Shown piece after piece: positions 41,789 through 58,613 of a stretch of DNA of 64,000 nt. The DNA is taken from the NCBI RefSeq assembly GCF_002160515.1, contig NZ_NFKS01000003.1:62001-126000 (forward strand), written 5' to 3'. Each line of letters begins with the position of its first letter. Positions within the stretch are counted from its first letter, which is position 1. The translations under genes and the position numbers were made by a program. The stretch comes from Anaeromassilibacillus sp. An172 (lineage in GTDB: Bacteria; Bacillota; Clostridia; Oscillospirales; Acutalibacteraceae). A model generated the notes under the pieces. The model was given only the letters and a program-made list of their open reading frames with translations. It was not told where the DNA came from and ran no database searches.

Positions 41789-41816
41789 TTTTAATTTTTA
41801 AAATAAAATTTTCACT

Positions 41817-42075: not shown

Positions 42076-42196
42076 AACTAATTTCAGAAATAGAAATCAA
42101 AAAGACGAGTGGGAATAAGAACTGATTTTTAAATTATTCTGTATTTTAATCCGAAAGCGGATTTTAATAAAATATTTAAAAAAGTGAGGAGAAGTT

Positions 42197-44095
42197 ATGG
42201 ATTATCGAAAAGTGGCTCAAGAAATCTATGACAAAGTTGGGCAAAAAGAAAACATTGTGTCTGCTGCCCACTGTGCTACAAGACTTCGCTTGGTTCTTGT
42301 GGATAACGGAAAATGCGACGCAAAAGCTGTGGAAAACATTGACGGCGTTAAGGGCGTGTTCAGTGCATCCGGTCAGCTGCAGATTATTATCGGTACAGGA
42401 GAGGTAAACAAAGTTTACGACGAGTTTATCAAGATTGCCGGAATAACTGCCGCCAGCAAGGACGACGTGAAAGCGACTGCTGCTGCAAAGCAAAATGTTT
42501 TTAAACGTGCCATAAAAACATTGGGTGATATTTTTGTGCCTATCATCCCTGCTATCGTAGCAAGCGGTTTCCTTATGGGAATCATGGAAGCCTTGAACTT
42601 TATGGTAAACAACGGCTATTTGAACATGGATACATCCGGTTCAATATACGTATTTGCCAATCTGTTTGCAAACACTGCCTATACATTCCTGCCGATTTTG
42701 ATAGCCTTCAGCGCAGCAAAGGCTTTCGGAGGAAACCCGTACTTGGGCGCAGTTATAGGTATGATTATGATTCACCCGAATCTCCAGAACGCATGGACAG
42801 TTGCTACCGAAGGCGTTCAGCAGACCCAAAGCGTTTGGTTTGGCCTATATTCAATAGATATGGTTGGATATCAGGGTCATGTTATTCCTGTTATTATAGC
42901 CGTATGGGTAATGTGCTTTATTGAAAAAAGACTTCACAAGATTGTACCTCCAATGTTCGACCTCTTTGTTACACCGCTTGTAAGCGTATTTGTAACAGGA
43001 TATCTTACATTGTCAATTATCGGACCTGTTTTCGTAACAGTTGAAAACGCTATTATCGGCGGAATTCAGACATTGCTTACATTGCCTTTCGGTATCGGAA
43101 GCTTTATTATGGGCGGTCTTTATTCAGCAACAGTTGTTGCAGGTATTCACCATATGTACACTGTTATTGATGTTGGACAGCTTGCAATGTACGGATTTAC
43201 ATATTGGCTGCCGTTGGCATCCGCTGCAAACATTGCACAGGGTGCAGCTGCTTTGGCAGTAGGCTTAAAGACAAAGAACAAGAAGACAAAGGCTGTTGCA
43301 ATTCCTTCTGCAATGTCCTGCTTTATGGGTATCACAGAACCTGCAATCTTCGGTGTAAACCTTAGATTCTTCAAGCCTTTCCTTTGCGGAGCTGTAGGCG
43401 GCGCCTGCGGTGCTCTGTACGCTTCAATCGTAGGCCTTGGCGCCAGCGGTACAGGTGTTACAGGTATCTTTGGACTTTTGCTCTGCCTCCACAACCCAAT
43501 CAACTATATCATCATGTTCATAATTTCAGCAGGCGTTGCATTTGTTCTCACATGGCTTTTCGGCTTCAAGGATAAAAAAGAGGACGAAACAGCAACCGCT
43601 CCTGAAAACAATAACACAGATAAAAAAGAAATTCCTGCACTTCAGTGCAAAAGCGGTGTTATCTATGCACCTGTAAACGGAAAAGTTTTCTCATACGAGC
43701 AGATTCCAGACCAGACCTTTGCAGCAGGTATTCTCGGTAAAGGCGTTGGAATTGAACCTGAGGTTGGAGAAGTAGTAGCTCCCTTTGACGGAGAAATTTC
43801 ATCAGTTACAGATACAAAACACGCAGTTGCAATTACATCACCGGACGGCATGGAGGTTTTAATCCATGTAGGTGTTGACACAGTTGCAATGAAGGGCGAC
43901 GGCTTTAACTGCCTTGTAAAAGAGGGACAGAAAGTAAAAGCCGGAGAAAAGCTCATCACATTTGACAGAGAAAAAATCAAGAAGGCAGGACATCCGGACT
44001 GCGTTGTGGTTCTCCTGACAAACTGTGACGATTACAGTGATTTCAAGTTTAACACAGGCAGCTGCAAACTGCTTGACCAGGTTATAACAGTATAA
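42197..44095 (+). CDS. Sucrose-type PTS permease EIIBCA
   Basis: 632-aa phosphotransferase permease. N-terminal EIIB has the phosphocysteine in AAHCATRLRLVL. EIIC (about residues 100-450) has ten or so membrane helices with AIVASGFLMGIMEALNF, GVNLRFFKPFLCGAVGGACG and ITEPAIFGV. C-terminal EIIA has the phosphohistidine in EVLIHVGVDTVAMKGDG. It imports and phosphorylates a disaccharide. Sucrose (or trehalose-like sugar) specificity is inferred from the adjoining sucrose-6-phosphate hydrolase, fructokinase and LacI-type repressor. GTGAGGAG precedes the ATG. It is the first gene of the operon, downstream of two operators. Confidence 0.9.
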   Translation: MDYRKVAQEIYDKVGQKENIVSAAHCATRLRLVLVDNGKCDAKAVENIDGVKGVFSASGQLQIIIGTGEVNKVYDEFIKIAGITAASKDDVKATAAAKQNVFKRAIKTLGDIFVPIIPAIVASGFLMGIMEALNFMVNNGYLNMDTSGSIYVFANLFANTAYTFLPILIAFSAAKAFGGNPYLGAVIGMIMIHPNLQNAWTVATEGVQQTQSVWFGLYSIDMVGYQGHVIPVIIAVWVMCFIEKRLHKIVPPMFDLFVTPLVSVFVTGYLTLSIIGPVFVTVENAIIGGIQTLLTLPFGIGSFIMGGLYSATVVAGIHHMYTVIDVGQLAMYGFTYWLPLASAANIAQGAAALAVGLKTKNKKTKAVAIPSAMSCFMGITEPAIFGVNLRFFKPFLCGAVGGACGALYASIVGLGASGTGVTGIFGLLLCLHNPINYIIMFIISAGVAFVLTWLFGFKDKKEDETATAPENNNTDKKEIPALQCKSGVIYAPVNGKVFSYEQIPDQTFAAGILGKGVGIEPEVGEVVAPFDGEISSVTDTKHAVAITSPDGMEVLIHVGVDTVAMKGDGFNCLVKEGQKVKAGEKLITFDREKIKKAGHPDCVVVLLTNCDDYSDFKFNTGSCKLLDQVITV

Positions 44096-44118
44096 AAAGT
44101 ACTTTGCCAATGTACAAT

Positions 44119-44154
44119 GGCGGCAAAAGCATCTGCACGTTTGTTTTTGCCGCC
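44119..44154 (+). other. Intercistronic hairpin between permease and GH32 genes
   Basis: Ten-base-pair stem GGCGGCAAAA (44119-44128) with TTTTGCCGCC (44145-44154), 16-base loop, no T tract after it. It may stabilise the upstream mRNA end or set the ratio of the two genes. Confidence 0.6.
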
Positions 44155-44189
44155 GGAGTACCGCCAACAATAAAGGGAGTGATTTTGAA

Positions 44190-45680
44190 ATGACATCAGA
44201 AATCCTGCAACAGGCACGAGATTATGAAAATAAAAATGCGGACAGTATAACAAAAGAAGAGCGTCCCTCATTTCATGTGACGCCGCCAATAGGATGGATG
44301 AACGACCCAAACGGTTTTTCCGTTTACAAGGGAGAATATCACTTGTTTTTTCAGTATCATCCCTACAGTATAAAATGGGGCCCTATGCATTGGGGACACT
44401 ACAAGACAAAAGATTTTATCCGCTGGGAAAGACTTCCCGTGGCGATTGCCCCTGACAGTGATTTTGACATTGACGGATGTTTTTCCGGCAGTGCAGTTGA
44501 ACTTTCAGACGGCCGTCAGATGCTAATGTACACAGGCGTTTATCCTGAAATGCTTGAGAACGGAACAAAGAAAACGGTTCAAGCTCAGTGCGTGGCATTT
44601 GGTGACGGAATAAATTACGAAAAATCAAAACTAAACCCCATTTTGACAGAAAAGGATTTGCCGGAATGGGGAAGCAAATGGGATTTCAGAGACCCGAAAA
44701 TCTGGAAAAAAGATAAAGATTTGTATGCGGTAATAGGTACACGTACAACAGACGGAAGCGGAGCGATACTTCTCTACAAAGCCGCTGAGGACGCTCCGGA
44801 GAAATGGACTCTTGTAAGCACGGTTGACAGGTCAAACAATGAATACGGAAAGATGTGGGAATGTCCGGATTTGTTCATGCTTGACGGCAAATGGGTTTTA
44901 ATCACATCACCTCAAAACATGGTTGCCAAGGGTCTTGAATATCACAACGGCCATGACGTTATATGTATCACAGGAAATTTTGACTATGAAACAGGAAAAT
45001 TCACAAGAGAAAACGTGATGCCCGTTGAAGGCGGAATTGATTTTTATGCACCACAGACTTTGCTCACACCGGACGGCAGACGCATAATGATTGCATGGAT
45101 GCAGGCTTGGGACTCATCAAAATTTGTACCCAAGGGTCAAAAATGGTTCGGTATGTTCACAATACCCAGAGAGCTGACCATTAAAAACGGTTGTTTAATT
45201 CAAAACCCCGTAAGAGAAATTGAAAATTACAGATGCAATAAAGTATCGTATAAAAATATAGATATCAAAGAAGAGGTAAAACTCCCCGGAGTGGCAGGAA
45301 GAATTATTGACCTTACCGCAACGGTATACTTTGATAAAAAAGAAGCCAGCGGAAAGTTTGTAATAAAATTTGCGCAGAACGAAGATTTTTACAGCAGTAT
45401 AACATATGACCCGGCAGATAATCTGCTGACTTTGGACAGAACCTATTCAGGTTTTCCACACTACATTGTCCACAGCCGCACAATAGAGGTTAAAAGGAAT
45501 GAATACAATTCTTTAAAGCTCAGAATACTGCTGGACCGCAATTCGGTAGAATTGTTTGTAAACGACGGAGAGAAAGCTATGTCGGCAGCTTTGTATACTC
45601 CTCTTGACGCAGACTCAATAACATTCGAGTCAAAAGGAAATGTAAAGCTCGACATTGAAAAGTATGATTTAAAGTTTTAA
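44190..45680 (+). CDS. GH32 sucrose-6-phosphate hydrolase
   Basis: 496 aa, family GH32. The nucleophile is in PIGWMNDPNGFSVYKGEYHL, the transition-state Asp in DFRDPKIW, and the acid/base Glu in MWECPDLFMLDG. The C-terminal beta sandwich follows (about residues 340-496, with NSVELFVNDGE). It cleaves the beta-fructosidic bond of sucrose-6-phosphate to glucose-6-phosphate and fructose. It is intracellular, without a signal peptide. AAGGGAGTG precedes the ATG. The family lies downstream of the permease in a typical scr operon. Confidence 0.93.
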   Translation: MTSEILQQARDYENKNADSITKEERPSFHVTPPIGWMNDPNGFSVYKGEYHLFFQYHPYSIKWGPMHWGHYKTKDFIRWERLPVAIAPDSDFDIDGCFSGSAVELSDGRQMLMYTGVYPEMLENGTKKTVQAQCVAFGDGINYEKSKLNPILTEKDLPEWGSKWDFRDPKIWKKDKDLYAVIGTRTTDGSGAILLYKAAEDAPEKWTLVSTVDRSNNEYGKMWECPDLFMLDGKWVLITSPQNMVAKGLEYHNGHDVICITGNFDYETGKFTRENVMPVEGGIDFYAPQTLLTPDGRRIMIAWMQAWDSSKFVPKGQKWFGMFTIPRELTIKNGCLIQNPVREIENYRCNKVSYKNIDIKEEVKLPGVAGRIIDLTATVYFDKKEASGKFVIKFAQNEDFYSSITYDPADNLLTLDRTYSGFPHYIVHSRTIEVKRNEYNSLKLRILLDRNSVELFVNDGEKAMSAALYTPLDADSITFESKGNVKLDIEKYDLKF

Positions 45681-45852
45681 TTAGATTTTAATTATTCACT
45701 TATCTTTGTTAAAAAGAGCATTATAATCCGGTTGCATAAAGCTGAATATTGATGTATATTATTGATATAATTTTTGCTTTTTGCAATAACAGGGCTTGAT
45801 AGCGTTTAAACAAAAGCCCACTATATAATGTACAGAAGTGAGTTGATAATAT

Positions 45853-46866
45853 ATGCAGATAAAGGATATTGCACGTCTTGCCGGAGTGTCACCGTCTACG
45901 GTGTCAAGAGTGCTGAATAATTCAGGTTATGTAAGCGAGGAAATACGTCTAAAGGTTCAAAGCGTAATAGACGAAACCGGTTACAGACCCAATCAGATTG
46001 CAAAATCCCTTAAGGACAGAAGCACCAAAACTATAGGAATAATTATTCCTCAGATAGCTTCTGAAACAATGGCGAAACTTGTCGAAGCCGCTTACAGATG
46101 CTGTAATGATAGAGGATATAAAATCCTTATGGAAAACACCCAGCTTGACTGGGGCAGAGAAATTGAAAGCCTGAAAAGTCTTTATCATCAGCAGGTTGAA
46201 GGAATACTTCTGATGTCGGTGGGACTTTCTCAGGAGCATAAACAGGTTATAGATAGTTTAAAAATACCGGTGATTGTAACCGGTCAGAAAATGGACGGGC
46301 TTTGCTGTTACACTCATGACAACAGAAACGCAGTTAAAGCTTTAGTCACAAAAATGATTGAAAGAGGCAAAAAAAGAATTGCCATTTTGAATGTGGATAT
46401 AGAAGAGGATGACTCTATCAGAGTTCAGAGAGAGCTTGGATATCGTGACGCCCTTTCTGAAAATGGTATAGAGTTTGACCCGAAGCTTGCGGCTTACGGA
46501 AAATTCTCAGTGGCTTCCGGAATGGAAATGATGGGAAAAATCTGGAATGAAAACGAGGTAAAGCCCGACGGAGTTTTCGCAGTGACAGACAAAATAGCTA
46601 TCGGCGCAATGAGATTTCTCATGAAACAGAAAGTAGATATACCCGTAGAATGTGCCGTGGCAGGAGTGGGCAACAATAAGCTTTCAGAATTTATTGAGCC
46701 CGCCTTGTCCACAATAGAGTATCATTATACAGAGCTTGGCACAGCGGCAACCAATTTGCTGATTGACGCTATAGAAGGAAATGAAAAGGCGGAGGGAATC
46801 CACCTTATGAAATATGACATAATTGAGAGGAGCAGCACTAATGAACAATATTCTTGTAATGGGTGA
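45853..46866 (+). CDS. LacI-family repressor of the sucrose locus
   Basis: 337 aa. The helix-turn-helix is MQIKDIARLAGVSPSTVSRV followed by LNNSGYVSEEI and the hinge helix RPNQIAKSLK. The effector-binding domain resembles sugar-binding proteins (TIGIIIPQIASETMAKLVEA, then VFAVTDKIAIGAMRFL). The direct neighbours are two GH32 genes, a fructokinase and a sucrose PTS permease, so the likely ligand is fructose or sucrose-6-phosphate. The probable targets are the paired operators at 42028-42075. It overlaps the kinase gene by 26 bases. Confidence 0.92.
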   Translation: MQIKDIARLAGVSPSTVSRVLNNSGYVSEEIRLKVQSVIDETGYRPNQIAKSLKDRSTKTIGIIIPQIASETMAKLVEAAYRCCNDRGYKILMENTQLDWGREIESLKSLYHQQVEGILLMSVGLSQEHKQVIDSLKIPVIVTGQKMDGLCCYTHDNRNAVKALVTKMIERGKKRIAILNVDIEEDDSIRVQRELGYRDALSENGIEFDPKLAAYGKFSVASGMEMMGKIWNENEVKPDGVFAVTDKIAIGAMRFLMKQKVDIPVECAVAGVGNNKLSEFIEPALSTIEYHYTELGTAATNLLIDAIEGNEKAEGIHLMKYDIIERSSTNEQYSCNG

Positions 46867-47812
46867 ACTTTTAATTGACTTTATTCCGTGTGAAAAGGGC
46901 AGAGCCCTTAAAGATGTAGATAATTTCCAGCGTGCCGCAGGCGGTGCACCCGGCAATGTTGCGGCGGCTATTTCAAAGCTGGGCGGTCATTCCATTATGA
47001 TTTCAAAGCTGGGATATGACGCTTTCGGCGACCACATTGTTGAAAACCTCAACAGCGCAGGTGTTGACACAAAATACGTTTTCAGAACAAACGAGGCAAA
47101 AACAGCTTTGGCATTTGTATCCCTTGATAAAGAGGGCAACAGAGATTTCAGCTTTTACAGAAATCCAAGTGCAGACCTGTTTTTAAGCCCTGATGATATA
47201 ACAGAGGATATGTTTGATAATTGCAGTGTGTTCCATTTCGGTTCTGTAGATCTTGTGGATTATCCCGTTAAGAAGGCTCACAAGAGAGCAATAGAAATTG
47301 CGAAGGAAAAAGGTATCACAGTAAGCTTTGACCCTAACATCAGACTTCCACTTTGGGATAGCCCGGAAGCTTGTCAGGCGGCTGTAAGAGAGTTTCTGCC
47401 TTATGCTGATATAGTAAAAATTTCAGATAACGAGCTTGAGTTTATCACAGGCAAGGATGACCCGGCAGAGGCTGCAAAACTGCTTTTTGAAAACGGCTGT
47501 AAGTTCTTTATGTATACAAAGGGTAAGGACGGAGCGGAAGCTTTCACAAAGAATGTTCACGTTTCAATGCCTTGCTTCCCTGTAGAAGTTGTTGACACAA
47601 CAGGTGCAGGAGATTCATTCATGGGTTCAATGCTTTACAGCATAACAGAAAAGGGAATGAGCCTTGAAGAGCTTGAAAATATCGACGAAAATACATTGAA
47701 AGAATTTGTAAAATTTTCATCACTCTATGCTGCAAGCACAACAACAAGAAAAGGCGGCGCCTGCTCAATGGCTACAATGAGTGAAATCAAAGAATTTGCA
47801 AAAAGGTTTTGA
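46841..47812 (+). CDS. PfkB-family fructokinase
   Basis: 323 aa ribokinase-fold sugar kinase. Motifs are the N-terminal MGELLIDFIP, AAGGAPGNVAAAISKLG (substrate binding), and the C-terminal ATP/anion-hole signature VDTTGAGDSFMGSMLY with the catalytic aspartate. It phosphorylates fructose released by the GH32 enzymes, feeding it to glycolysis. Fructose specificity is inferred from the operon. ATG 46841 is chosen since GAGGAGC lies at 46827-46833; it overlaps the repressor gene end, so the two are translationally coupled. Confidence 0.93.
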   Translation: MNNILVMGELLIDFIPCEKGRALKDVDNFQRAAGGAPGNVAAAISKLGGHSIMISKLGYDAFGDHIVENLNSAGVDTKYVFRTNEAKTALAFVSLDKEGNRDFSFYRNPSADLFLSPDDITEDMFDNCSVFHFGSVDLVDYPVKKAHKRAIEIAKEKGITVSFDPNIRLPLWDSPEACQAAVREFLPYADIVKISDNELEFITGKDDPAEAAKLLFENGCKFFMYTKGKDGAEAFTKNVHVSMPCFPVEVVDTTGAGDSFMGSMLYSITEKGMSLEELENIDENTLKEFVKFSSLYAASTTTRKGGACSMATMSEIKEFAKRF

Positions 47813-47816
47813 TTAT

Positions 47817-49181
47817 ATGAAAAATACTTACAGACAAGAATATCATCTTATGCCTGAAACAGGCTTTTTAAATGACCCCAACGGACTTTGCTATTACAAC
47901 GGCGAATATCATATTTTCCACCAGTACGCCCCACAGGGACTTTCGGCTCAAAGGGGATGGGGACATTATACAACAAAGGATTTTGTAAATTACAATAATT
48001 ACGGAATGGTTATTTATCCCGATTCTGTCTGGGATAAAAACGGTTCATATTCAGGTTCTGCCCTTATTGACGACGGTGAAATGGAGCTGTTCTACACAGG
48101 AAACGTGAAGCAGCCGGGCAACCACGACTATACACTCAGCGGCAGAGAACAAAACCTCATATATATGAGTTCAAAAGACGGAGTTAATTTCTCAGAAAAA
48201 GAACTCCTTATGACAAACGACGATTATCCTGAAAATTGTTCCTGCCATGTTCGTGACCCAAAGGTTTGGAAAGAGGGAGAAAATCTCTATAAAATGATAC
48301 TGGGTGCAAGAACCAGAGATGACAGGGGAGAAGCTCTCGTTTACAAATCTTCAGATAAAAAACACTGGACTCTTGATAAGGTTTATACAAAACCACAGCT
48401 GGGATACATGTGGGAATGTCCGGACTTCTTTGAGCTTGAGGGAAAAACATTCCTCTGCTGCTGTCCCCAGGGCGTAGAGCCAAAGGGAATAGAGTGCCAA
48501 AACATTTATCAGAGCGGATATATGATAGTTGAGGGCGACGAGCTTTCAGAGTTTGTAGAGTTCGACAGAGGTTTTGACTTCTATGCACCTCAAACATTCC
48601 TTGCACCGGACGGCAGAAGAATAATTATAGGTTGGTTCGGACTTCCGGATGTTCCTTATAAGAACCCAACAGAGGAAACCGAAAACTGGATTCACTGCCT
48701 TACAATTCCAAGAACACTGGAATTTAAAGATAACAAAATCTGGCAGGAACCTATAGCCGAGCTTGAAAAGCTTAGAACCGATGAAATATCCCTTTCACTT
48801 GAACCGGGAAAGATAAATATTCTTCCTAAGGTTCAGTGTGAAGCATTTATAAATTTTAAAGATAAAACAGACAGTTTTGATATTTCAATAAGAAAAGATA
48901 TAAATATATCTCTCAAGGACGGCGTGTTTACCTTAAAAATAGGTGACAGTGGAAAAGGCAGAACTGAAAGAAGCTGTAAAGTAGATAAAACCGACAGCGT
49001 AAGAATTTTCAGCGACACTTCCTCAATAGAGATATTTGTAAACGGAGAGGTGTTCTCCTCAAGAATTTACGAAGAAAAAGACAATTCCGAGGACTTTACA
49101 GTTGTCCTCAATTCATCTTCACAGGGATGCGATCTCGCCTATTATATTCTGCGTCCCTTTGAGATAACAAAAATAAGCTAA
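47817..49181 (+). CDS. Second GH32 beta-fructosidase
   Basis: 454 aa GH32 protein. The nucleophile is in TGFLNDPNGLCYYNGEYH, the second Asp in CHVRDPKVWKEG, and the acid/base in MWECPDFFELEG. A beta-sandwich C-terminus (SIEIFVNGEVFSSRIY) follows. The kinase gene ends five bases before ATG 47817, so it is cotranscribed. It is clearly divergent from the first GH32 gene and may prefer a different fructoside, such as sucrose-6-phosphate or short fructo-oligosaccharides. There is no signal peptide, so its substrate must enter the cell first. Confidence 0.92.
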   Translation: MKNTYRQEYHLMPETGFLNDPNGLCYYNGEYHIFHQYAPQGLSAQRGWGHYTTKDFVNYNNYGMVIYPDSVWDKNGSYSGSALIDDGEMELFYTGNVKQPGNHDYTLSGREQNLIYMSSKDGVNFSEKELLMTNDDYPENCSCHVRDPKVWKEGENLYKMILGARTRDDRGEALVYKSSDKKHWTLDKVYTKPQLGYMWECPDFFELEGKTFLCCCPQGVEPKGIECQNIYQSGYMIVEGDELSEFVEFDRGFDFYAPQTFLAPDGRRIIIGWFGLPDVPYKNPTEETENWIHCLTIPRTLEFKDNKIWQEPIAELEKLRTDEISLSLEPGKINILPKVQCEAFINFKDKTDSFDISIRKDINISLKDGVFTLKIGDSGKGRTERSCKVDKTDSVRIFSDTSSIEIFVNGEVFSSRIYEEKDNSEDFTVVLNSSSQGCDLAYYILRPFEITKIS

Positions 49182-49233
49182 CGCCACAGTTTTTGTACTG
49201 TTTACTCCTTTCAACAAATATATATTGCTAAAA

Positions 49234-49279
49234 AATAAACGTTCTGAGGTAGGGATGACCTCAGAGCGTTTATTTTTGT
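49234..49279 (+). terminator. Terminator of the sucrose locus
   Basis: Eighteen-base-pair stem AAATAAACGTTCTGAGGT with ACCTCAGAGCGTTTATTT (one G-U pair), loop AGGGATG, then TTGTG. Confidence 0.9.
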
Positions 49280-49348
49280 GTTTTAAGAACATTGTCTTTT
49301 AAGGTCTTTTTTTAATTAGCCGGCGTATTCTTTACCGAGGTGATTGTT

Positions 49349-49513
49349 TTGGATAAGGATACTACAGAATTTTTTCTGGGAGAGACAAAAGTTAAAATTG
49401 CAGATCCAAAGGAAAACGTCGGTAAAGATGAAATTGAAAAAATTTTGAATACAATAGCTTTGCTTTACAAAAACACATTGAAAAACCCGGAAGATAAAAA
49501 CTATAAACAGTGA
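49349..49513 (+). CDS. Small unknown protein next to cotJC piece 3
   Basis: 54 aa from TTG 49349, preceded by GAGGTGA at 49337-49343. A beta-rich first part (TTEFFLGETKVKIADPKENV) is followed by a helix (EIEKILNTIALLYKNTLK). The stop (49511-49513) is ten bases before the GGT junction with cotJC piece 3, pointing toward it. I do not recognise a family. Its layout (short beta part plus basic helix) is like the gene at 26179 in the other element. A recombination directionality factor is a plausible guess, without direct evidence. Confidence 0.5.
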   Translation: MDKDTTEFFLGETKVKIADPKENVGKDEIEKILNTIALLYKNTLKNPEDKNYKQ

Positions 49514-49522
49514 CAGCCTTTT

Positions 49523-49843
49523 GGTGCTGATGAGTTGGGACATTTGGAAATGATAGGAGCGATAGTTTATCAGCTTACAAAGAACCTGACAGAAAAGGAA
49601 ATTAAGGAAGCAGGTTTTGAAGATTACTTCGTAGACCACACTTTGGGAATTTATCCCCAGTCCGCATCAGGTGTGCCTTTTTCAGCGGGAACCTTTGCTG
49701 TGAAAGGCGATCCAATAACCGATTTGCACGAAAACATGGCAGCAGATGACAGTACTTTAAAAATACATACAAAAATCCCGCATACTCTAAATCTGAGTAC
49801 ACGGGATTTTTTGGCTTTATGTTACGGTTTTATATTTGTTTGA
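49523..49843 (+). pseudogene. cotJC: cotJC piece 3 (C-terminal half, truncated)
   Basis: Frame from GGT 49523 gives G-ADELGHLEMIGAIVYQLTKN, then AGFEDYFVDHTLGIYPQSAS, and GVPFSAGTFAVKGDPITDLH. This is CotJC residues after piece 2, including the metal-ligand-type ELGHLE motif. Homology ends at ENMAAD (about 49747). The frame continues with unrelated residues (DSTLKIHTKIPHT) to a stop at 49843, over a terminator. The last CotJC helix (the ferritin-like ExxH helix near the C-terminus) is missing. With pieces 1 and 2 the joined frame is 167 codons long, of which about 137 resemble CotJC (family about 190 residues). Confidence 0.88.
49771..49812. terminator. Bidirectional terminator between cotJC piece 3 and pgm
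   Basis: AAAAATCCCG with CGGGATTTTT outer stem and TACTC/GAGTA inner stem separated by a small internal loop, with A and T runs on both sides. Confidence 0.82.
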
Positions 49844-49879
49844 TGGTAAACATCAATATGACTTTTGTTTAAGGTCAGA

Positions 49880-51598
49880 TTAAAGACCCATGATTTTTTT
49901 CATGTCGTCTGTAATCAAATCGGTGATTCTCTGTGCGTCAGCCTTGTCTTTACCAACTGCTGTCACATAAATCTTAATCTTTGGCTCTGTGCCGCTTGGA
50001 CGAACAATAGCTGCATTGTTGCCCTCAAGATAATATGCCAAAACATTTGACTTAGGAAGCTCGATAACTTTTTCTGTTTCGGCAACAATGTCCTTTTCAA
50101 CGCTCTCTTTGAAGTCGGAGAATTTAACAACCTTCATGCCGCTTACTTCTGCCGGGCTGTTAGCTCTGAGAGAAGCCATAATGTCAGCCATTTTCTGCAT
50201 ACCTGCAGCGCCGTCAAAGCTGAAGCTGAGAGTTGTGTTCTTGTAGTAACCATATTCCTCATACATAGCGTCGATAACCTGAGCAAGAGTCTTGCCCTGC
50301 TTCTTGTAATATGCCGCCATTTCGCAGATAAGCATAGAAGCAACAACTGCGTCCTTATCTCTTACATAGCTTCCTGCAAGGTAGCCGTAGCTCTCTTCAA
50401 AACCGAATACAAATCTGTCTGTTTCGTTTGCAGGTTCAAGGTTCAGGATAACCTCGCCGATGTATTTAAAGCCTGTGAGAACGTTTTTAAGTTCACAGCC
50501 GTACTTTTCGCAAAGTCTGTCAATCATTATGCTTGTAACGATTGTCTTTACAATGATTGGCTTCTCAGGAAGTGTGCCGAGACGCTTTCTGTTGGAAAGT
50601 ATGTAATCTGTAAGCATAATTCCTGTTTCATTACCTGTAAGCAGACGATAGCTTCCGTCGCTGTCGATAACTGCGATACCTACACGGTCTGCGTCAGGGT
50701 CAGTTGCCAGGAGAAGGTCAGGCTTTTCAACTTCGCAAAGCTCAAGACCTTTCTGGAGAGCCTCTTTAATTTCCGGGTTTGGATAAGGACAGGTTGTAAA
50801 GTTGCCGTCCGGCATTTCCTGCTCTTTAACAATCTTAATATCCTCAACGCCGATTTCACCCAAAACTCTGCGTACAAGCTTGTTGCCTGTTCCGTTGAGA
50901 GGAGTGTAAACAACCTTAAGGTCAGCACCCTTGCAGATGCCTTCGTTTATCTGCTGTTTCTTAACATTGCCAATATATCTGTCATAAACTTCGTCAGCAA
51001 CATACTCGATAAGTCCCTTGCTGATTGCTTCGTCGAAGTCCATTGTCTTTACATCTTTAAATATATCCAGCTTGCAAATCTCATCATAAACAATACCTGC
51101 GGCAACGTCTGTCATCTGGCAGCCGTCCTCACCGTAAGCCTTGTAGCCGTTGTACTTTGCCGGGTTGTGGCTTGCAGTAACCATGATACCTGCCTGACAC
51201 TTGAGATCTCTTACGAGGAAGCTGAGTACAGGTGTTGGCTGAAGCTCGCTGGTGATATATGCCTTGATTCCGTTAGCTGCCAAAACCTTTGCAGCCTCAA
51301 TCATAAACAGGTCTGCCTTAATACGGCTGTCGTGAGAAATAGCAACTGCACCGCCGCCGAATTTTGAGTTAACATAATTTGCAAGACCCTGTGTTGCATG
51401 TCTTACAACATAGATATTCATTCTGTTAGTACCTGCGCCGATAACACCTCTGAGACCTGCTGTACCGAACTCAAGGGAGCGGTAAAAACGCTCGTAAATC
51501 TCATCTTTATTATCTTTAATGCTTTCGAGCTCTGCAATCAGATCTTTGTCGTCTGTTGCAGACTGACACCATTGGTTATAGCTTTCCATAAAATCCAT
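49880..51598 (-). CDS. Alpha-D-phosphohexomutase (phosphoglucomutase/phosphomannomutase)
   Basis: 572 aa. The phosphoserine loop is GIMVTASHNPAKYNGYKAYG. The metal-binding loop is LLATDPDADRVGIAV, the sugar-binding loop FGFEESYGYLAG, and the phosphate-binding C-terminus AIVRPSGTEPKIKIY. These define the long Firmicute form, close to PgcA, which interconverts glucose-1-phosphate and glucose-6-phosphate. It starts MDFMESYNQWCQSA, with a GGAGGG upstream on the minus strand. It is monocistronic and faces the cotJC remnant. Confidence 0.95.
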   Translation of the reverse strand: MDFMESYNQWCQSATDDKDLIAELESIKDNKDEIYERFYRSLEFGTAGLRGVIGAGTNRMNIYVVRHATQGLANYVNSKFGGGAVAISHDSRIKADLFMIEAAKVLAANGIKAYITSELQPTPVLSFLVRDLKCQAGIMVTASHNPAKYNGYKAYGEDGCQMTDVAAGIVYDEICKLDIFKDVKTMDFDEAISKGLIEYVADEVYDRYIGNVKKQQINEGICKGADLKVVYTPLNGTGNKLVRRVLGEIGVEDIKIVKEQEMPDGNFTTCPYPNPEIKEALQKGLELCEVEKPDLLLATDPDADRVGIAVIDSDGSYRLLTGNETGIMLTDYILSNRKRLGTLPEKPIIVKTIVTSIMIDRLCEKYGCELKNVLTGFKYIGEVILNLEPANETDRFVFGFEESYGYLAGSYVRDKDAVVASMLICEMAAYYKKQGKTLAQVIDAMYEEYGYYKNTTLSFSFDGAAGMQKMADIMASLRANSPAEVSGMKVVKFSDFKESVEKDIVAETEKVIELPKSNVLAYYLEGNNAAIVRPSGTEPKIKIYVTAVGKDKADAQRITDLITDDMKKIMGL

Positions 51599-51815
51599 TT
51601 TAAAATCCCTCCATGGTTAGTGATTTAAAAGACGAAAATTGTGTATTCTCAAAGATAGTATAAACTTACTTTGACACACTAAATTATATCATAAATGCAT
51701 AGGATTTACAAGAGATAATTTTATATTATCACCAAAAAAATGCGTTTTTTCCGAGAATTATTCTACATAAAGACTTTTAACAGGAAATATTCAACAACCG
51801 TTCACATTCTTTCTG

Positions 51816-51844
51816 TTGATTTGTTGCCAATGATATAGTAATAT
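51816..51844 (+). promoter_or_regulatory. Sigma-A promoter of membrane protein gene at 51884
   Basis: TTGATT at 51816-51821, 17 bases, TAATAT at 51839-51844. Confidence 0.72.
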
Positions 51845-51883
51845 ATAAAACATACAAAATAGATTATTCTGGAGGTTTAACCA

Positions 51884-52990
51884 ATGGGCGAAGAGCAAAA
51901 TAAGTCTGTTTTTGAAAATAAAGAACAGGAAGATTCAAAAGACACTGATATGAACGAAACTGTTAGTGAAACAAGTGTTGAAAACAATGAGGAAGAAACT
52001 CAGTTTGTTTCAGAACCACAAAATGATTTTTCTGATGATGTTACAGATGATCTGAATACGGAAAACGACAGCTCTGAAGAAACAGATTCAGCTGAGTTTT
52101 TTAATGAATACAGTTTTGAAAACAGCGAAGAGTCTTCCGAAAACACTGAAGAAGGAACAGAAAACCAGGTTGATACTGACCTTAGCAGCTATCAGGGACA
52201 GTATGTAAATGTTGAAGCTCAGGAAAGTACACCTGTAAAGACCAAGAAAAAAGGTATTCTTTATCCTTCAACAATAGTTGTTTTGGTGCTTGTAGTTGCG
52301 TCAATAGTTATCTATGGCATTTATGCATCGTTCCAGCCGTCAATTAAGGGCGCATGGGTGAGCACAAGTGTTGATGAAACCTCAACTGCAAATTCCTATC
52401 TTGTTTTGGGCGACGATAATGTGGCTTATATGACATTGGGAACAATGAGATATATGGGTATTTACAGCACATCTTTTGATGATGACGGTCAGAAGATTTT
52501 AACAGTTGATATTCCTTATGCACTGCAATCAAATTTTGTATATGAATTGCAGGGAGATATAATGACTCTCGTAATGGAAGGCGACACAACAGAGTATACC
52601 TTTAAGAATGTAGAGCTTCCTGACTATACCCTCACAGTTCCTGATGACTATGTAAGAGATGACAACCTTTTGGGTAAATGGAAGGATTATACCTACGATA
52701 TAGAATACACATTCAGAGCTGACGGCACAATGCTCATAAGCGAAGCCGGAGTTGTTGAAGCTGACTGTATCTATAATATAGTAGACGGAACAATCCATGT
52801 TGAGTATCTCGCCGGAGAAGTATATTCAATGGATATGGAATACACAGTTGACGGAAACAATCTGACAATAGGAGTTATGAACTTCCAGAAAATTGCAGAT
52901 GAAAACGGAAAAGCAATCCAGACAGAAGAGCAGACAACCGAGGCAGACACAACAGCCGAAACAACAGTAGAAGAAACAGTTGCTGCATAA
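51884..52990 (+). CDS. Membrane-anchored protein with two lipocalin-like beta domains
   Basis: 368 aa. The first roughly 120 residues are highly acidic and low in complexity (many E, D, S, N, T). A single membrane helix follows basic KTKKKG (LYPSTIVVLVLVVASIVIYG). The C-terminal part has two similar beta-rich units beginning IKGAWVSTSVDETS and LLGKWKDYTYDIEYTFRADG (about residues 155-250 and 255-340); such G-x-W...F...G repeats are typical of lipocalin-like domains. The tail is Thr/Glu-rich. Topology: acidic N-terminus in the cytoplasm, beta domains outside. Function unknown. GGAGG precedes the ATG. Confidence 0.8.
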   Translation: MGEEQNKSVFENKEQEDSKDTDMNETVSETSVENNEEETQFVSEPQNDFSDDVTDDLNTENDSSEETDSAEFFNEYSFENSEESSENTEEGTENQVDTDLSSYQGQYVNVEAQESTPVKTKKKGILYPSTIVVLVLVVASIVIYGIYASFQPSIKGAWVSTSVDETSTANSYLVLGDDNVAYMTLGTMRYMGIYSTSFDDDGQKILTVDIPYALQSNFVYELQGDIMTLVMEGDTTEYTFKNVELPDYTLTVPDDYVRDDNLLGKWKDYTYDIEYTFRADGTMLISEAGVVEADCIYNIVDGTIHVEYLAGEVYSMDMEYTVDGNNLTIGVMNFQKIADENGKAIQTEEQTTEADTTAETTVEETVAA

Positions 52991-53020
52991 AGAAAAGATC
53001 ATAATTAAATAAAAAATGAA

Positions 53021-53050
53021 AAAACACGCCGATTTCTTACGGCGTGTTTT
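53021..53050. terminator. First of two tandem terminators between convergent genes
   Basis: Stem AAAACACGCCG (53021-53031) with CGGCGTGTTTT (53040-53050). Confidence 0.9.
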
Positions 53051-53064
53051 CTACATAATAAAAC

Positions 53065-53090
53065 AAAAGAGCGGTGAAAACCGCTCTTTT
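53065..53090. terminator. Second of two tandem terminators between convergent genes
   Basis: Stem AAAAGAGCGGT (53065-53075) with ACCGCTCTTTT (53080-53090), loop GAAA. It serves yebC on the minus strand and probably the plus-strand gene as well. Confidence 0.9.
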
Positions 53091-53113
53091 TAGATTTTAA
53101 TGATTTAATTAAA

Positions 53114-53866
53114 TTAGTCCTCGTCTGGTGTTTCCGGCATATCCCAGTTGTGCCATACGTTCTGAACGTCGTCGTTGTCCTCAAGCATGTCGAGGAGCTT
53201 CTGCATTTTAACCTGTACATCAGGGTCGTCAATCTTTGTGTAGGTGGATGGAACCATCTCAACTTCTGCTGATGCAAAGGTATAGCCCTTAGCTGTCAGG
53301 TCGTCACGAACTGCGCCCATGTCAGAAGGCTCTGTGTAAACTGTATAGATATCCTCGTCTGCTTCAAAATCAGCAGCGCCTGCTTCCAAAGCGTCCTCCA
53401 TGAGTTTATCCTCTTCAACCTCGTTGTCCTCTTTGTCGAGAACCAAAACGCCCTTCTGCTCAAACATAAAGCTAACGCATCCAGGTGTACCCATGTTGCC
53501 GCCGAACTTATCGAAATAGTGTCTTACATCGCCGGCAGTTCTGTTTCTGTTGTCTGTAAGAGCCTCAACAATAACAGCGATACCGCTTGGGCCGTAGCCT
53601 TCGTATGTTACAGCCTCGTAGTTTGCGCCGCCTGCTTCACCTGCGGCTTTCTTAATAATTCTTTCGATGTTTTCGTTGGGCACGTTGTTTGCCTTTGCTT
53701 TTGCGATGCAGTCACGAAGCTTTGAGTTAGCGGCTGGATCTGCGCTTCCGCCGTCACGAACTGCAACGATAAGCTCTCTGCCTATCTTTGTAAAAATCTT
53801 TGCTCTAGCAGCGTCGTTTTTACCCTTTTTCTGCTTAATAGTACTCCATTTATTATGTCCGGACAT
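53114..53866 (-). CDS. YebC/PmpR-family regulator
   Basis: 250 aa. The N-terminal [20 protein letters not shown] is the unmistakable family start, followed by [16 protein letters not shown] and [15 protein letters not shown]. The middle has [20 protein letters not shown] and [20 protein letters not shown], which also match. Members have been described as DNA-binding transcription regulators and, more recently, as factors helping translation of proline-rich stretches. The actual role here is open. The ribosome site is AAGGGAA. Terminators follow the gene. Confidence 0.95.
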
Positions 53867-54026
53867 TTATTACCATTCCCTTGTAAATAAAATTGTATTA
53901 AAAATTGCAATCTATTATACCATGAAATCACAGTTAATGCAAATGTTTTTTAATGTCGGTTTGTGTTAAACAGGGAAATATAAAGAAGATTTACAAATAA
54001 AAGGTTACAATTTTGTAACTTTTCTA

Positions 54027-54055
54027 TTGTCAAAATAATATAGGGGTGATATAAT
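54027..54055 (+). promoter_or_regulatory. Sigma-A promoter of yicC-remA-gmk-rpoZ-priA cluster
   Basis: TTGTCA at 54027-54032, 17 bases, TATAAT at 54050-54055. The transcript leader would be about 75 bases. Confidence 0.85.
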
Positions 54056-54134
54056 TATCTGTGGAAAAGCTGAAAACGAAGGGAATATCAGCTTACCACA
54101 GAAATTATCATAGAGTAAGAAAGGAAAAATTATT

Positions 54135-55013
54135 ATGGCAAGGTCAATGACCGGCTTCGGAAGATGTGAAGCCACCATAAACGGACGTGACATTGTGGTT
54201 GAAATTAAAAGTGTCAACCATAAGTATTTTGAGTTTTTTTGCAGAACCTCAAGAGGATATTCATTCCTTGAGGAAAGACTTAAATCAGAGATAAACAGTA
54301 AGATAAGCAGAGGAAAGCTGGATGTTTTTGTTTCGGTTTCCGTACCTGAGGATACACAGGCAAATGTTACCGTTAATCATAACTTGGCGGCAGGATATGT
54401 AAACGCTCTTAAAGAGCTTGCGCAGACATATGATTTGACATATGATATAACCGCTTCCATGCTTTCAAGATATCCGGATATTTTGACAGTTCATAAAACA
54501 CCTGAGGATGAGGACGAAGTTTGGGCAGCAGTAAAGCCTGCTTTGGACGAGGCTCTCAACAGATACATAGAGATGAAAAAGTCAGAGGGTGAAAGACTTA
54601 AAGCTGACGTTTTGGGCAGAGCCGGGCATATTCTGGAAATCGTATCAAAAATAGAAGAGCGTTCTCCTCAAACCGTAAAAGAGTACGAAGCAAGACTAAA
54701 AGAAAAGATAAAGGATTTCCTCCAGGGAGCTACAGTAGACGAGCAGAGACTTTTGACAGAGGTTGCAATATTCTCGGATAAGGTTGCCGTGGCAGAGGAA
54801 ACCGTAAGACTTAGAAGCCATTTTGAAGAGCTTAAAAATGCTTTGGACACAGACGGCGCAGTGGGCAGACGACTTGACTTTATAATTCAGGAAATGAACA
54901 GAGAGGCAAACACAATAGGCTCTAAGGTGTCTGACGCAGAGCTTGCCCACAGAGTTGTAGATATAAAGGTTGAAATAGAGAAGATAAGAGAGCAGATACA
55001 GAATCTTGAATAA
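54135..55013 (+). CDS. YicC/YloC-family endoribonuclease
   Basis: 292 aa. The N-terminal [20 protein letters not shown], then [18 protein letters not shown], and the C-terminal [20 protein letters not shown] are the family signatures. Family knowledge: YicC proteins cleave RNA, and in Bacillus the gene precedes remA and gmk in the same order as here. AAGAAAGGAAAAAT precedes the ATG. It leads an operon that runs through at least rpoZ-priA. Confidence 0.95.
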
Positions 55014-55024
55014 GAGGGAAAATA

Positions 55025-55276
55025 ATGAAACTTATAAATATAGGATTTGGCAATACAGTGTCATCTGCAAGGATTGTTGCGGTGGTTTCTCCTGACTCTG
55101 CGCCTATAAAAAGAATTGTACAGGACGCAAAAGCCAAGGGAACACTGATAGACGCTACCTACGGCAGAAGATGCAAAGCTGTTATTATAACCGACAGCGA
55201 CCACATCATACTGTCAGCCATTTCCCCTGAAACTATTGGAAACAGAAATGAAGAAGGAGCTGAGCAGATTGACTAA
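55025..55276 (+). CDS. remA: RemA/DUF370-family DNA-binding regulator
   Basis: 83 aa, with the family N-terminus [20 protein letters not shown] and [20 protein letters not shown]. In Bacillus subtilis RemA activates extracellular-matrix and osmoprotection genes as a ring-forming DNA binder; in Clostridia the target genes are unknown. The position between yicC and gmk is conserved. Its 3' end overlaps the likely start of gmk by eight bases. Confidence 0.94.
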
Positions 55277-55847
55277 CAATACTGTAAACAAGGGAGTTTT
55301 GATTGTATTTACCGGAGCGTCAGGAGTCGGCAAGGGAACTGTAATGAAAAAAATTCTTGCAGCAGACCCAAACAACTGGCTTTCGGTTTCTATGACCACC
55401 AGAGCTCCGAGAGCCGGTGAAGTTGCCGGAGTTGACTACAACTATATTTCTGTTGAGGAGTTTAAAAGCATGATGGCAGAGGACGCTTTTTTGGAGTCCG
55501 CATGCTACTGCAAAAACTATTACGGAAGTCCAAAAGCTCCGGTTGAAGAAAATCTCAAAAACGGCAAGAATGTTTTTCTTGAGATTGAGGTTCAGGGATT
55601 TGAGCAGGTAAGAGAGCTTTATCCGGATTGTTTGAGCATTTTCCTGCTTCCTCCGTCAATAGAGGTTTTGGAGCAAAGACTCAGAGGAAGAGGCACAGAG
55701 AAAGAAGAAGTAATTCAGGATAGACTCAATACCGCTTTAAGAGAGATTTCAAGATCAAACGAGTATAAATACAATGTTGTAAACGACGACATAGACAGAG
55801 CAGTTGAGGAAATACTCAATATTGTAAAAAATGAACGTGCAAAGTGA
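55269..55847 (+). CDS. gmk: Guanylate kinase
   Basis: Phosphorylates GMP to GDP with ATP. Visible: P-loop [40 protein letters not shown] (GMP binding), and [16 protein letters not shown] (lid region). The start is set at TTG 55269 (GGAG lies at 55255-55258), giving 192 aa and a normal N-terminus just before the P-loop. Alternatives are ATG 55248 or TTG 55236, but they lack a clear ribosome site. Overlap with remA suggests coupling. The enzyme itself is certain; the start is moderately so. Confidence 0.93.
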
Positions 55848-55924
55848 TATTTTAACATGAATTTCACAGCCACAACACAGAATAAGACTATACTATAATT
55901 TAAAGAATAAAAAGGAGAATAAGT

Positions 55925-56131
55925 ATGCATAAGGTTTCAGTAGATGATATGTTCAGCGGAAAGAAGAGCAGATACGCATTGGTAATAGGTGTTGCAAAGA
56001 GAGCACGTGAGATTGCAACATATTTTAATGAAAATGAGATTGTAACAAAAGATAAGCCTGTGCTTTTGGCTATTGAGGACTTCAAACAGCACAGATACAA
56101 TATTTTAGAGCCTGACACAGATGAGGAATAA
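55925..56131 (+). CDS. rpoZ: RNA polymerase omega subunit
   Basis: 68 aa. SRYALVIGVAKRAREIATYF is the omega signature that clamps the beta' C-terminus, followed by KPVLLAIEDFKQHRYNIL and the acidic ending EPDTDEE. It lies between gmk and priA as in many Firmicutes and is preceded by AAAAGGAG. The last 11 bases overlap the priA start. Confidence 0.94.
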   Translation: MHKVSVDDMFSGKKSRYALVIGVAKRAREIATYFNENEIVTKDKPVLLAIEDFKQHRYNILEPDTDEE

Positions 56132-58613
56132 TAGAGAAGAGGATTACTCTCTTGTAGCGGCTGTTGCCGTTGAAAAGACAGTTTACCACTTTGATAAACT
56201 TTTTGATTACAGAGTGCCGAAAAAGCTTGAAAAGTCCATAGAAAAGGGCAGACGTGTCTATGTTCCCTTTGGAAAGGGAAACTGCCTGCGTCAGGCAATG
56301 GTTTTTTCGGTGGATAAAGCGAAAGCTTCCGATATGGAAAACTTAAAGGAAATAAGAAGGGTTTTAGATAAGACAGCGGTTTTAACCGATGAAATGCTGG
56401 AACTTGCCCTTTTTATAAAGGACAGATGCTTCTGTACAATTTTTGAAGGTGTAAAGGCAATGCTTCCGGCAGGCCTTATGTTCAAAATGAAGCTGTACTA
56501 TAAGCTTTCGGAAAAAGGCGAAAAGCTTGTAAAATCGGAAAGCCTTGAAGATTTTTCACAGGAAGAAAAAAATATACTCCTTGCAATTTTTAAAAGCAAG
56601 GGACTTGAAAAGGAAAAAGTTGCCGATACTTTCGGAAAGGACGCCGAAGAGGTTTTTGAAAAGCTTTGCCGTGAGGGACTGGTTCTTGAAACAGAAAAAG
56701 CCAAAAGGAAAACCGCCGATGCCACCGTAAAGTGTATGGCGCTTACCGATGACGCATTTGATTATGAGGACTCACTTACCGAAAAACAGGAAGCGGTGTT
56801 TGAAATATTATCAATGTGCAAGGGCGCATCGGTAAAGGAAATTTGCTATTATACAGGGGTTACAACTGCGGTAGCCGACGCCCTTGTGAAAAAGGGCATA
56901 GCCTATTATTACGAGGAAGAGGTTTTCAGAACACCTAAAAAAGTGTCTGTAAACACCGGATTGCCGGAAAAGAAAATGACCCTGTCAGAGGAACAAAACA
57001 GAGTTTTTGAAAATATATACGGAAGATTTAAAGAGGATAAACCGTCGGTAACACTGCTTTTCGGAGTTACCGGTTCGGGAAAAACTTCGGTATATATTAA
57101 ACTTATAGACAGCGTTCTGAAAGACGGAAAAACCGTAATTTTTATGGTTCCGGAAATTTCATTGACGCCTCAGTTTACCGAAAAGTTTGAAAAGCTTTTC
57201 GGCAGCGACGTGGCTGTTTTTCACAGCCGATTGTCATTAGGGGAAAGGCTTGACGAGTATAAAAGAGTGCTGAGAGGCGATGCAAAAATAGTTGTAGGCA
57301 CAAGGTCTGCGGTTTTTGCGCCCCTTAGAAATATAGGTCTTATCATTATGGATGAGGAACACGAGCACACATATAAATCCGAAAGCACCCCAAGATACAA
57401 CGCCTGTCAGGTTGCAAAATTTCGATGTACAAAGAACAACAGCCTGCTTCTGCTGGGTTCGGCAACGCCGTCGGTTGAAAGCTATTATCATGCACTAAAC
57501 GGCACTTACTCATTGGAGATGCTGAAAGAGAGATACGGAACCTCGGTTTTGCCGGATGTTATGATTGAAGATATGAACCTTCAGACAGCAGAGGGAAATT
57601 TCGGAAACTTTTCTTCCGGACTTGCGCTGGAGATAGAAAAGAATCTTGAAAACGGAAAACAGTCCATACTGCTTTTAAACAGAAGAGGTCACAACACCTT
57701 TGTGGCGTGTACAAGGTGCAAAGAGGTTGTAACCTGTCCCAACTGTTCAATATCATTGACCTTTCACAGCGCCAACAACAGGCTTATGTGTCATTACTGC
57801 GGGTACTCAATACCCTATACCAACACATGCCCGTCCTGTCATCAGGATGGTTTGAGGTTTTCGGGTGCAGGAACTCAGCGTGTTGAACAGGAGCTGGCGG
57901 AGCTTTTTCCGTCGGCGAGAATTTTAAGACTTGATACAGATTCCACCATGGGAAAGTATTCCCACGAAAGAAAGCTATCGGCTTTCGCCGCTGGGGATTA
58001 CGATATACTGGTTGGTACTCAGATGGTGGCTAAAGGTCTTGATTTTCCGAAGGTCACATTGGTGGGAGTAATAAATGCGGACACCATGCTTTATTCCGAC
58101 GATTTCAGAAGCTATGAAAAGACCTTTTCCCTGCTGACCCAGGTGGTTGGAAGAAGCGGAAGAGGAGAGGAAAAGGGCAGAGCGGTTATACAGACATTTA
58201 CTCCCGATAACCCCATAATTTACCTTGCTGCAGAGCAGAACTATGAGGCTTTTTATCAAAGCGAAATAGAGATACGCAGAGGTATGCTGTATCCGCCTTT
58301 TGCGGATATCTGTTATATAGGCTTTGTGGGATTAAACCATGACGCCGTAAGGCGGAAAGCTATGGAGTTTTCCAAGTCTTTGGCGGAAACCGCAAGACTT
58401 CGCTACAGTCATATTCCCATGAGAGTTTTAGGGCCGTCGCCATCTTCGGTGACAAAGGTAAACAACAAGTACAGATACAATATAATTATAAAATGCAGGG
58501 ACAACAGGGAAACCAGAAGTCTGATAACCCTGATGCTCTGCGAATTTGGAAGAACCAACAACAGGGGAAAAGGCGTGAGAATTTTTGCCGACATGAATCC
58601 CCTGTCAATATAG
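56121..58613 (+). CDS. priA: Primosomal protein N' (replication restart helicase PriA)
   Basis: 830 aa 3'-to-5' helicase that reloads the replisome at stalled forks. The N-terminal DNA-binding domain (DYSLVAAVAVEKTVYHFDKL, then FDYRVP) is followed by a winged helix. The helicase core has Walker A LLFGVTGSGKTSVYIKLID, DEEH, LGSATPSVES, and the later motifs VGTQMVAKGLDFPKVTLVG. The inserted zinc domain shows CTRCKEVVTCPNCSISL and CHYCGYSIPYTNTCPSC. Length and order are normal. It overlaps rpoZ; def follows after 58 bases. Confidence 0.96.
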   Translation: MRNNREEDYSLVAAVAVEKTVYHFDKLFDYRVPKKLEKSIEKGRRVYVPFGKGNCLRQAMVFSVDKAKASDMENLKEIRRVLDKTAVLTDEMLELALFIKDRCFCTIFEGVKAMLPAGLMFKMKLYYKLSEKGEKLVKSESLEDFSQEEKNILLAIFKSKGLEKEKVADTFGKDAEEVFEKLCREGLVLETEKAKRKTADATVKCMALTDDAFDYEDSLTEKQEAVFEILSMCKGASVKEICYYTGVTTAVADALVKKGIAYYYEEEVFRTPKKVSVNTGLPEKKMTLSEEQNRVFENIYGRFKEDKPSVTLLFGVTGSGKTSVYIKLIDSVLKDGKTVIFMVPEISLTPQFTEKFEKLFGSDVAVFHSRLSLGERLDEYKRVLRGDAKIVVGTRSAVFAPLRNIGLIIMDEEHEHTYKSESTPRYNACQVAKFRCTKNNSLLLLGSATPSVESYYHALNGTYSLEMLKERYGTSVLPDVMIEDMNLQTAEGNFGNFSSGLALEIEKNLENGKQSILLLNRRGHNTFVACTRCKEVVTCPNCSISLTFHSANNRLMCHYCGYSIPYTNTCPSCHQDGLRFSGAGTQRVEQELAELFPSARILRLDTDSTMGKYSHERKLSAFAAGDYDILVGTQMVAKGLDFPKVTLVGVINADTMLYSDDFRSYEKTFSLLTQVVGRSGRGEEKGRAVIQTFTPDNPIIYLAAEQNYEAFYQSEIEIRRGMLYPPFADICYIGFVGLNHDAVRRKAMEFSKSLAETARLRYSHIPMRVLGPSPSSVTKVNNKYRYNIIIKCRDNRETRSLITLMLCEFGRTNNRGKGVRIFADMNPLSI

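Follow-up and report, generated by a model that had tools for sequence, protein, structure and literature searches.

The spore-coat gene cotJC of Anaeromassilibacillus sp. An172 lies in five fragments parted by four recombinase-bearing elements

Fragments of cotJC and the joined gene

The window analysed here comprises 64,000 nucleotides (C23:62001-126000) of the genome of Anaeromassilibacillus sp. An172 (G000; 2.81 Mb in 63 contigs, 98.9% complete). In its cotJ locus, cotJA and cotJB are followed by a cotJC gene that is divided into five fragments over 47887 bp, parted by four elements with large serine recombinases (LSRs) at three sites. Genes and fragments are given below, with the evidence in brackets.

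24196..24399, plus strand: cotJA (PF11007, E 4.5e-11)
24392..24646, plus strand: cotJB (PF12652, E 6.2e-27)
24646..24738, plus strand: cotJC fragment 1, codons 1-31, ending in the site-1 core (PF05067, family model, joining)
28766..28864, plus strand: cotJC fragment 2, codons 30-62 (family model, shared cores, joining)
33419..33430, plus strand: cotJC micro-fragment, codons 62-65 (GGT ACA GAA GAA), at the right end of E2b and the left end of E2a (sequence read)
49532..49744, plus strand: cotJC fragment 3, codons 65-135 (family model, shared cores, joining)
window-equivalent 72317-72532, plus strand: cotJC fragment 4, outside the window (PF05067, family model)

A search of the whole genome with PF05067 gave four matches, all on C23, on the plus strand and in order (profile positions 1-35, 27-64, 61-152 and 150-198). 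Three of these lie in the window and none of the three is the C-terminus, in agreement with a preliminary description of this DNA, which had found no C-terminal piece within 24.7-51.9 kb and had placed any fourth piece outside the window. It had also correctly seen that CotJC homology stops near 49747 at ENMAAD: the open reading frame at 49535-49843 reads ...DLHENMAAD, then the unrelated residues DSTLKIHTKIPHTLNLSTRDFLALCYGFIFV, with the stop at 49843. The CotJC model match of this piece ends at position 138, and its last in-register codon is 135. The same description doubted that a C-terminus exists, naming decay or a further, unlinked piece as the options. A further piece is indeed present, though not an unlinked one: the fourth match (C23:134320-134466, window-equivalent 72320-72466; profile 150-198, E 2.1e-8) lies 8.3 kb past the window end at 64000; it shares contig and strand with the other pieces and follows 22.6 kb downstream. 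Scored against a model built from 14 intact genes of the family, fragment 4 reaches E 8.5e-35; from the core onward it reads EQKARTTYDNILRFCDDYDVRDAIRFLREREIVHYQRFGENLRILTDKLDERNFYAFNPSFDKCPVKKPK followed by a stop (as translated in the in-silico join) and contains the helix that had been expected there. Piece 2 alone scores 24.3 bits, under the Pfam cut-off and with one TGA within the match, whereas as an open frame it matches the family model at E 3.3e-16. A full-length cotJC elsewhere, considered in the preliminary description, did not turn up: the PF05067 search of all 2.81 Mb lists no other match and no second cotJC. A second PF05067 type (MFKHEKQL... or similar) is intact in the relatives that were read, and none is listed in G000.

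Joined at their cores in silico, the fragments yield 205 amino acids that align without gaps to positions 1-201 of 202 of the 14-gene model (383 bits), a full-length match to the CotJC / manganese catalase family (PF05067). The restored product of 137 CotJC-like residues plus 30 others, probably inactive, that had been expected in the absence of a fourth piece is not supported, as the CotJC joined in silico is complete. The residues E35, E65, H68, E136 and H169, which we take to be the metal ligands from solved manganese catalases, are all present in the joined protein. The breaks fall inside the coding sequence of this sporulation gene (codons 31, 62/65 and 135/136), and the crossovers at codons 31, 62, 65 and 135/136 are on or beside three predicted ligand motifs. 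It might be argued that phages use cotJC DNA that the protein cannot change.

Since every large fragment is an open frame, the fragments could in principle be translated apart as a split protein, or be joined at the RNA or protein level. Fragment 2, however, comes after a stop codon and has no start codon before its GGPDGE motif, one fragment consists of four codons only, and recombinases with att cores are found at the breaks. This explanation is almost certainly wrong.

Elements, recombinases and att sites

Each element of the split gene carries a serine recombinase. The four LSRs, with both PF00239 and PF07508, account for four of the 22 PF07508 matches in G000.

24736..28768: element E1, 4033 bp (in-register core common to fragments 1 and 2; orthologous element in the sister species)
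24726..26123, minus strand: LSR1 of E1, site-1 clade (PF00239, PF07508; tree)
27415..28710, plus strand: phage-type lysis genes of E1, GH25 lysozyme and holin (PF01183, PF05105)
28862..33418: element E2b, 4557 bp, nested in the left end of E2a (shared cores, buried joint; absent from the sister)
30667..32259, minus strand: recA, LSR of E2b, second site-2 tree group (PF00239, PF07508; tree)
33428..49531: element E2a, 16104 bp, carrying genes for sugar uptake and further metabolic functions (cores; also in the sister)
35475..37034, minus strand: recB, LSR of E2a, first site-2 tree group (PF07508, PF00239; tree; sister orthologue)
49743..49770, plus strand: left att site of E3, core CAGA and arm GTACTTTAAAAATAC (15-bp perfect inverted repeat with the right end)
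49771..49813: hairpin with T-run just within E3 (read by eye)
49745..64000: window part of element E3, 22575 bp in all (profile matches, recombinase position, joining)
window-equivalent 70707-72296, pointing at fragment 4: LSR3 of E3, 529 aa (PF07508, PF00239)

LSR1 and LSR3 abut breaks, recA is 1.8 kb from one, and recB is located within E2a rather than at its end. LSR3 ends 24 bp before fragment 4; a C-terminal piece beside another recombinase had been named beforehand as something that would strengthen the idea of a split gene, and with its own LSR adjoining it this piece does so. LSR1 overlaps the site-1 core with its last codons (24726-24740), so that excision would alter the end of the recombinase itself. 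The terminator reported earlier after piece 3 is readable by eye as a hairpin with T-run at about 49771-49813, and probably serves the opposed phosphoglucomutase gene.

The att sites are direct and each fragment pair has a short in-register core in common, such that precise excision restores the frame in silico. For the inverted repeats at the element ends, the median number of matches per 24 positions is 16, 15 and 16 for true pairs at sites 1-3 against 12, 12 and 12 for mismatched pairs, with overlapping ranges (95% of mismatched pairs at 16/24). In G000, E3 stands out with its 15-bp perfect arms; the longest run of E1, E2b and E2a is 8, a length that mismatched pairs reach as well (95% at 9).

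At site 2 the left end resembles the ends beside one group of site-2 LSRs in relatives, while the right end matches that of the sister. Insertion of an element into the left end of an older one predicts a buried joint, and this was found at 33419-33430, where the sequence reads CGATGTAGGTACAGAAGAATAAGACC; the sister has GATATAGGTACAGAAGAATCTGTACC directly after fragment 2. These four codons form the fifth fragment, inside the window, which the preliminary description had missed. A single element at site 2, joined at GGT, was considered and rejected: it would yield IGADELGH and its ends form a poor inverted repeat (longest run 5, 11/24), whereas the buried joint fits the nested model. The exact pattern of the sister's left end has no match in the window, since the letters past the core differ.

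A short ORF precedes the site-3 LSR in all seven elements that were read (G000 at L007:12562-12702, and L074, L119, L121, L122, L123 and L145). Several of these ORFs look alike by eye, and we regard them as candidate directionality factors on that likeness.

By Pfam, E3 contains genes for phosphoglucomutase, YebC, YicC, guanylate kinase, PriA, peptide deformylase, Fmt, RsmB, RlmN, a PASTA kinase, RsgA, thiamine pyrophosphokinase and acetate kinase. Single-copy status in G000 was established for gmk (guanylate kinase), copy number being checked for part of the other core genes. In the sister, phosphoglucomutase is contiguous with a membrane protein gene, a zinc-ribbon gene and a sulfhydrylase-like gene, and a guaA-like gene directly follows acetate kinase (the latter two names were given by recognition). 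These neighbours suggest that a later rearrangement placed host genes between the ends of E3. Excision of E3 would consequently remove core genes, which should be bearable only for a cell that is about to die.

Sister species, selection and recurrence in the family

The sister species (G001; same genus, 86% complete) carries E1 with the same gene order and an E2a, and is without E2b and E3. Site 3 is uninterrupted there and reads ...NMAAEQKARTTYDN..., a natural empty site, with fragments 3 and 4 in one frame, ...DLHENMAAEQKARTTYDN..., matching the joint predicted for G000. The possibility raised earlier of a full gene in sister strains thus holds for fragments 3 and 4, whereas sites 1 and 2 are still occupied by elements. 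In the sister, the cotJC stop codon is closely followed by another LSR gene (L041:9762-10652), which the end of the contig truncates.

Between G000 and the sister the joined cotJC shows 86 synonymous and 12 non-synonymous differences, and a dN/dS of about 0.016 (0.037, 0.012, 0.008 and 0.016 for the large fragments 1 to 4), ratios that are rough because dS is near saturation. Control genes gave 0.014 for gdhA, 0.061 for fructokinase, 0.078 for LacI, 0.098 for sucrose hydrolase, 0.131 for a tail-like gene, 0.133 for PTS-IIA, 0.139 for recB and 0.145 for LSR1 (cotJB, lysozyme and holin had no usable dS). The joined cotJC is therefore constrained like gdhA and more strongly than the LSRs. The break between fragments 1 and 2 predates the divergence of the two species; that both fragments have been constrained since argues that the joined product is made. 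E3 is younger than the split from the sister, and for fragments 3 and 4 selection accordingly speaks to non-decay, not to joining since that time. As to the cargo of E1, identity between the species is 88.5% for the lysozyme, 76.7% for the holin and 64.4% for LSR1, and the lysozyme and holin may have been taken over by the host.

These results bear on the option of decay put forward in the preliminary description. Spelled out, it would mean that phages disrupted cotJC and left a dead gene, with the fragments as its remains. Stops within pieces do occur in some other genomes (G025, G068, G081, G100 and G142), and loss of CotJC in B. subtilis gave no apparent defect, so that the protein seems dispensable there (PMC12122855, available in part). 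Yet several of the stops fall past the break, with the Pfam match running into the element, and the frames of G068 and G142 are open to the break. In G000 itself the fragments complement one another, join seamlessly at the cores and lack nothing, and purifying selection is strong, also on fragments 1 and 2 since their ancestral separation. Decay is not supported, and we consider it very unlikely.

The same breaks recur across the family. PF05067 matched in 152 of 200 family genomes (own and sister included). The 58 genomes with a weak best match were searched again and 80 regions were taken from 51 of them (those not fetched were G020, G111, G113, G120, G150, G167 and G194). Among the 53 genomes made up of these 51, G000 and G001, 51 have a break at one of three sites, with 60 events in total: site 1 alone in 20 genomes, site 2 alone in 16, site 3 alone in eight, sites 1 and 2 in five and all three in two. 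A break was counted when at least 100 bp of contig lay beyond it, and a frame break at codon 42 in G144 was left out. The figure of 51 out of 200 is a minimum, since genomes with an intact best match were not followed; partial second copies are seen in G022, G030, G080 and G099. Where a contig holds two or more fragments, these are on one strand and in order in 13 of 14 cases (G144 not counted). The exception is G100:C19 (L124, L125 and L345), where fragment 4 is found some 23 kb upstream of fragment 1, both being on one strand and separated by an rpoC-like gene. Taken literally, joining would here split the chromosome into two circles; the contig may be misassembled.

An LSR within 200 bp and pointing at the break was found for 17 of 24 events at site 1, 11 of 20 at site 2 and 7 of 8 at site 3 (counting events in which 2 kb or more of an element side could be seen). 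With both sides visible, an LSR is at the break in 12 of 14, 7 of 13 and 2 of 2 events. As a control, an LSR ORF occurs in the 1.5 kb flanks of 2 of 30 intact cotJC-like loci, one of them a 133-aa fragment. In a tree of 61 LSRs, the 18 site-1 LSRs form one clade and the seven site-3 LSRs another (100/99). The 11 site-2 LSRs require four changes and fall in two groups, with one of the two from G000 in each; some placements in the tree (e.g. that of G064) depend on long branches.

We also scanned genome contigs with 15 site-1 LSR queries and without any cotJC sequence, and kept 80 of the 566 relatives found. In 73 of these 80 the 3' end of the LSR adjoins a cotJC fragment broken near codon 31, two further ones lie at 187 and 903 bp from a fragment, and five are without one (one of these with only 127 bp of room). 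The 80 relatives are not independent of the family sample, given that the queries were chosen for their nearness to cotJC and that five of the contigs appear common to both.

Proposed excision in the mother cell and related systems

Taken together, we consider it very likely that skin-like elements are excised from cotJC in the mother cell and that the whole CotJC is rebuilt at sporulation. The four elements that interrupt the three sites, each encoding an LSR and one lying inside another at site 2, would derive from phages, and growing cells could not read cotJC whole. At sporulation each LSR, together with a directionality factor, would excise its own element from the mother-cell chromosome (attL x attR), after which the pieces would join in frame to give full CotJC for the coat; the forespore would retain the unrearranged chromosome. 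E2b would have to leave before E2a, because it sits in the left att site of the latter. Among the sporulation genes of G000 are SpoIVA and those of two sigma factors of sigma-K/E type, whose matches to the sigma-K model are strong yet fall short of its curated cut-off.

A sigma-E-like motif upstream of the LSRs was sought as well. In our own LSR set it occurs in 5 of 18 (1.0 in shuffles, maximum 4). In a larger set there is no enrichment (8 of 77 against 6.1 in shuffles), and sites 2 and 3 give 3 of 13 (1.3 in shuffles) and 1 of 7 (0.4 in shuffles). In C. difficile skin, expression of the LSR depends on sigma-A and takes place in both cells, while a small directionality factor under sigma-E and SpoIIID limits excision to the mother cell (PMC5025042, in the part available); as a result, the null outcome of the sigma-E test is not decisive.

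Alternatively, the elements might leave by ordinary phage excision, now and then and in any cell, with cotJC restored in such cells alone and the att sites chosen for their conserved DNA. The sigma-E test, lending no clear support to developmental control, leaves room for this, and so do viral contigs with relatives of the site-1 LSRs: of the 80 kept from 192, 20 border on a fragment of cotJC and 18 offer too little room, which leaves 42 with no adjoining fragment (in one of them a cotJC fragment lies further on). For 39 of the 42, an inverted repeat in the 90 bases after the LSR exceeds 95% of shuffles in one of two measures, and these repeats are read as attP of temperate phages. Ordinary excision would, however, need four separate events, in order, in one cell, and selection keeps fragments 1 and 2 complete. 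Loss of E3 with its single-copy gmk and other core genes should moreover be lethal in a growing cell, and it is chiefly for this reason that we favour a mother-cell programme rather than free phage excision. Ordinary excision is in our view very unlikely.

A broader reading, for which we see somewhat better than even grounds, is that a coat gene is kept as five separate pieces of DNA, from which four recombinations, two of which must follow a set order, rebuild it. The mother-cell chromosome would be irreversibly dismantled in the process, with single-copy core genes such as gmk lost from a non-growing cell. cotJC would be a family-wide docking gene, with att sites on or beside metal-ligand motifs and dedicated recombinase clades.

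As in sigK of B. subtilis and C. difficile, where skin resides, an LSR element in direct orientation interrupts a mother-cell sporulation gene and its excision restores the frame. The present case differs from skin in the gene, in the number of elements (four, two of them nested) and in the essential-type single-copy gene within, and excision is here in silico. In B. cereus ATCC10987, gin (28.6 kb, with three serine recombinases and excision shown) likewise interrupts a small sporulation gene, gerE, and is without phage genes (PMC5595907, as far as available); it is one element in one gene, whereas for cotJC position and tree assign an att site of its own to each of the four LSRs. One phage-type element each sits in the sporulation genes yabG (yin), spsM (SP-beta) and spoVFB (vfbin), yabG having been added to sigK, spsM, spoVFB and gerE as interrupted genes; cotJC is not among the genes named in the accessible part of that source (PMC10747680). 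The term cotJ is absent from PMC10747680, PMC5595907, PMC10083194 and PMC5814915. Several elements in one gene are known for cyanobacterial heterocyst elements (10 of 87 interrupted genes, with four in Rivularia nifD; PMC4874684, in part), although in another lineage, cell type and set of genes; the terms 'nested', 'within another' and 'essential' do not occur in the available part of that paper.

From what the partly available sources tell, the nearest known case is phi027 of C. difficile R20291, a functional temperate phage with a CotJC-like gene next to its attR (PMC11222575; PMC12122855). This homologue is a 678 bp ORF downstream of attR and, unlike cotJC of G000, is unsplit. In the accessible portions of the open-licence literature we found no description of a split cotJC, and an earlier one may exist elsewhere. 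Overall, the split cotJC is an unusually elaborate variant of the skin kind. Programmed rearrangement in spore formers concerns a handful of genes with one element each in the published cases, as far as these were available, whereas cotJC is hit again and again in a large group of gut Clostridia, always at fixed positions and with up to four elements, one of them nested, and single-copy core genes lie inside an excisable segment. The system makes it testable whether mother cells discard core genes as a routine, how the order of excision is set and why phages settle in cotJC. In many genomes that possess cotJC the gene is likely annotated as absent or broken.

The LSR clades also supply many LSRs with known natural targets. 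An order-level search found LSRs in 14 of 59 genomes at E 1e-60 or better, and close relatives of the site-1 LSRs (E below 1e-160; including L359 and L360) are present in another four families of the order (f9, f14, f17 and f26). A record titled Bacteroides sp. (L220), probably misnamed or mis-binned, has a site-1 LSR beside a cotJC fragment.
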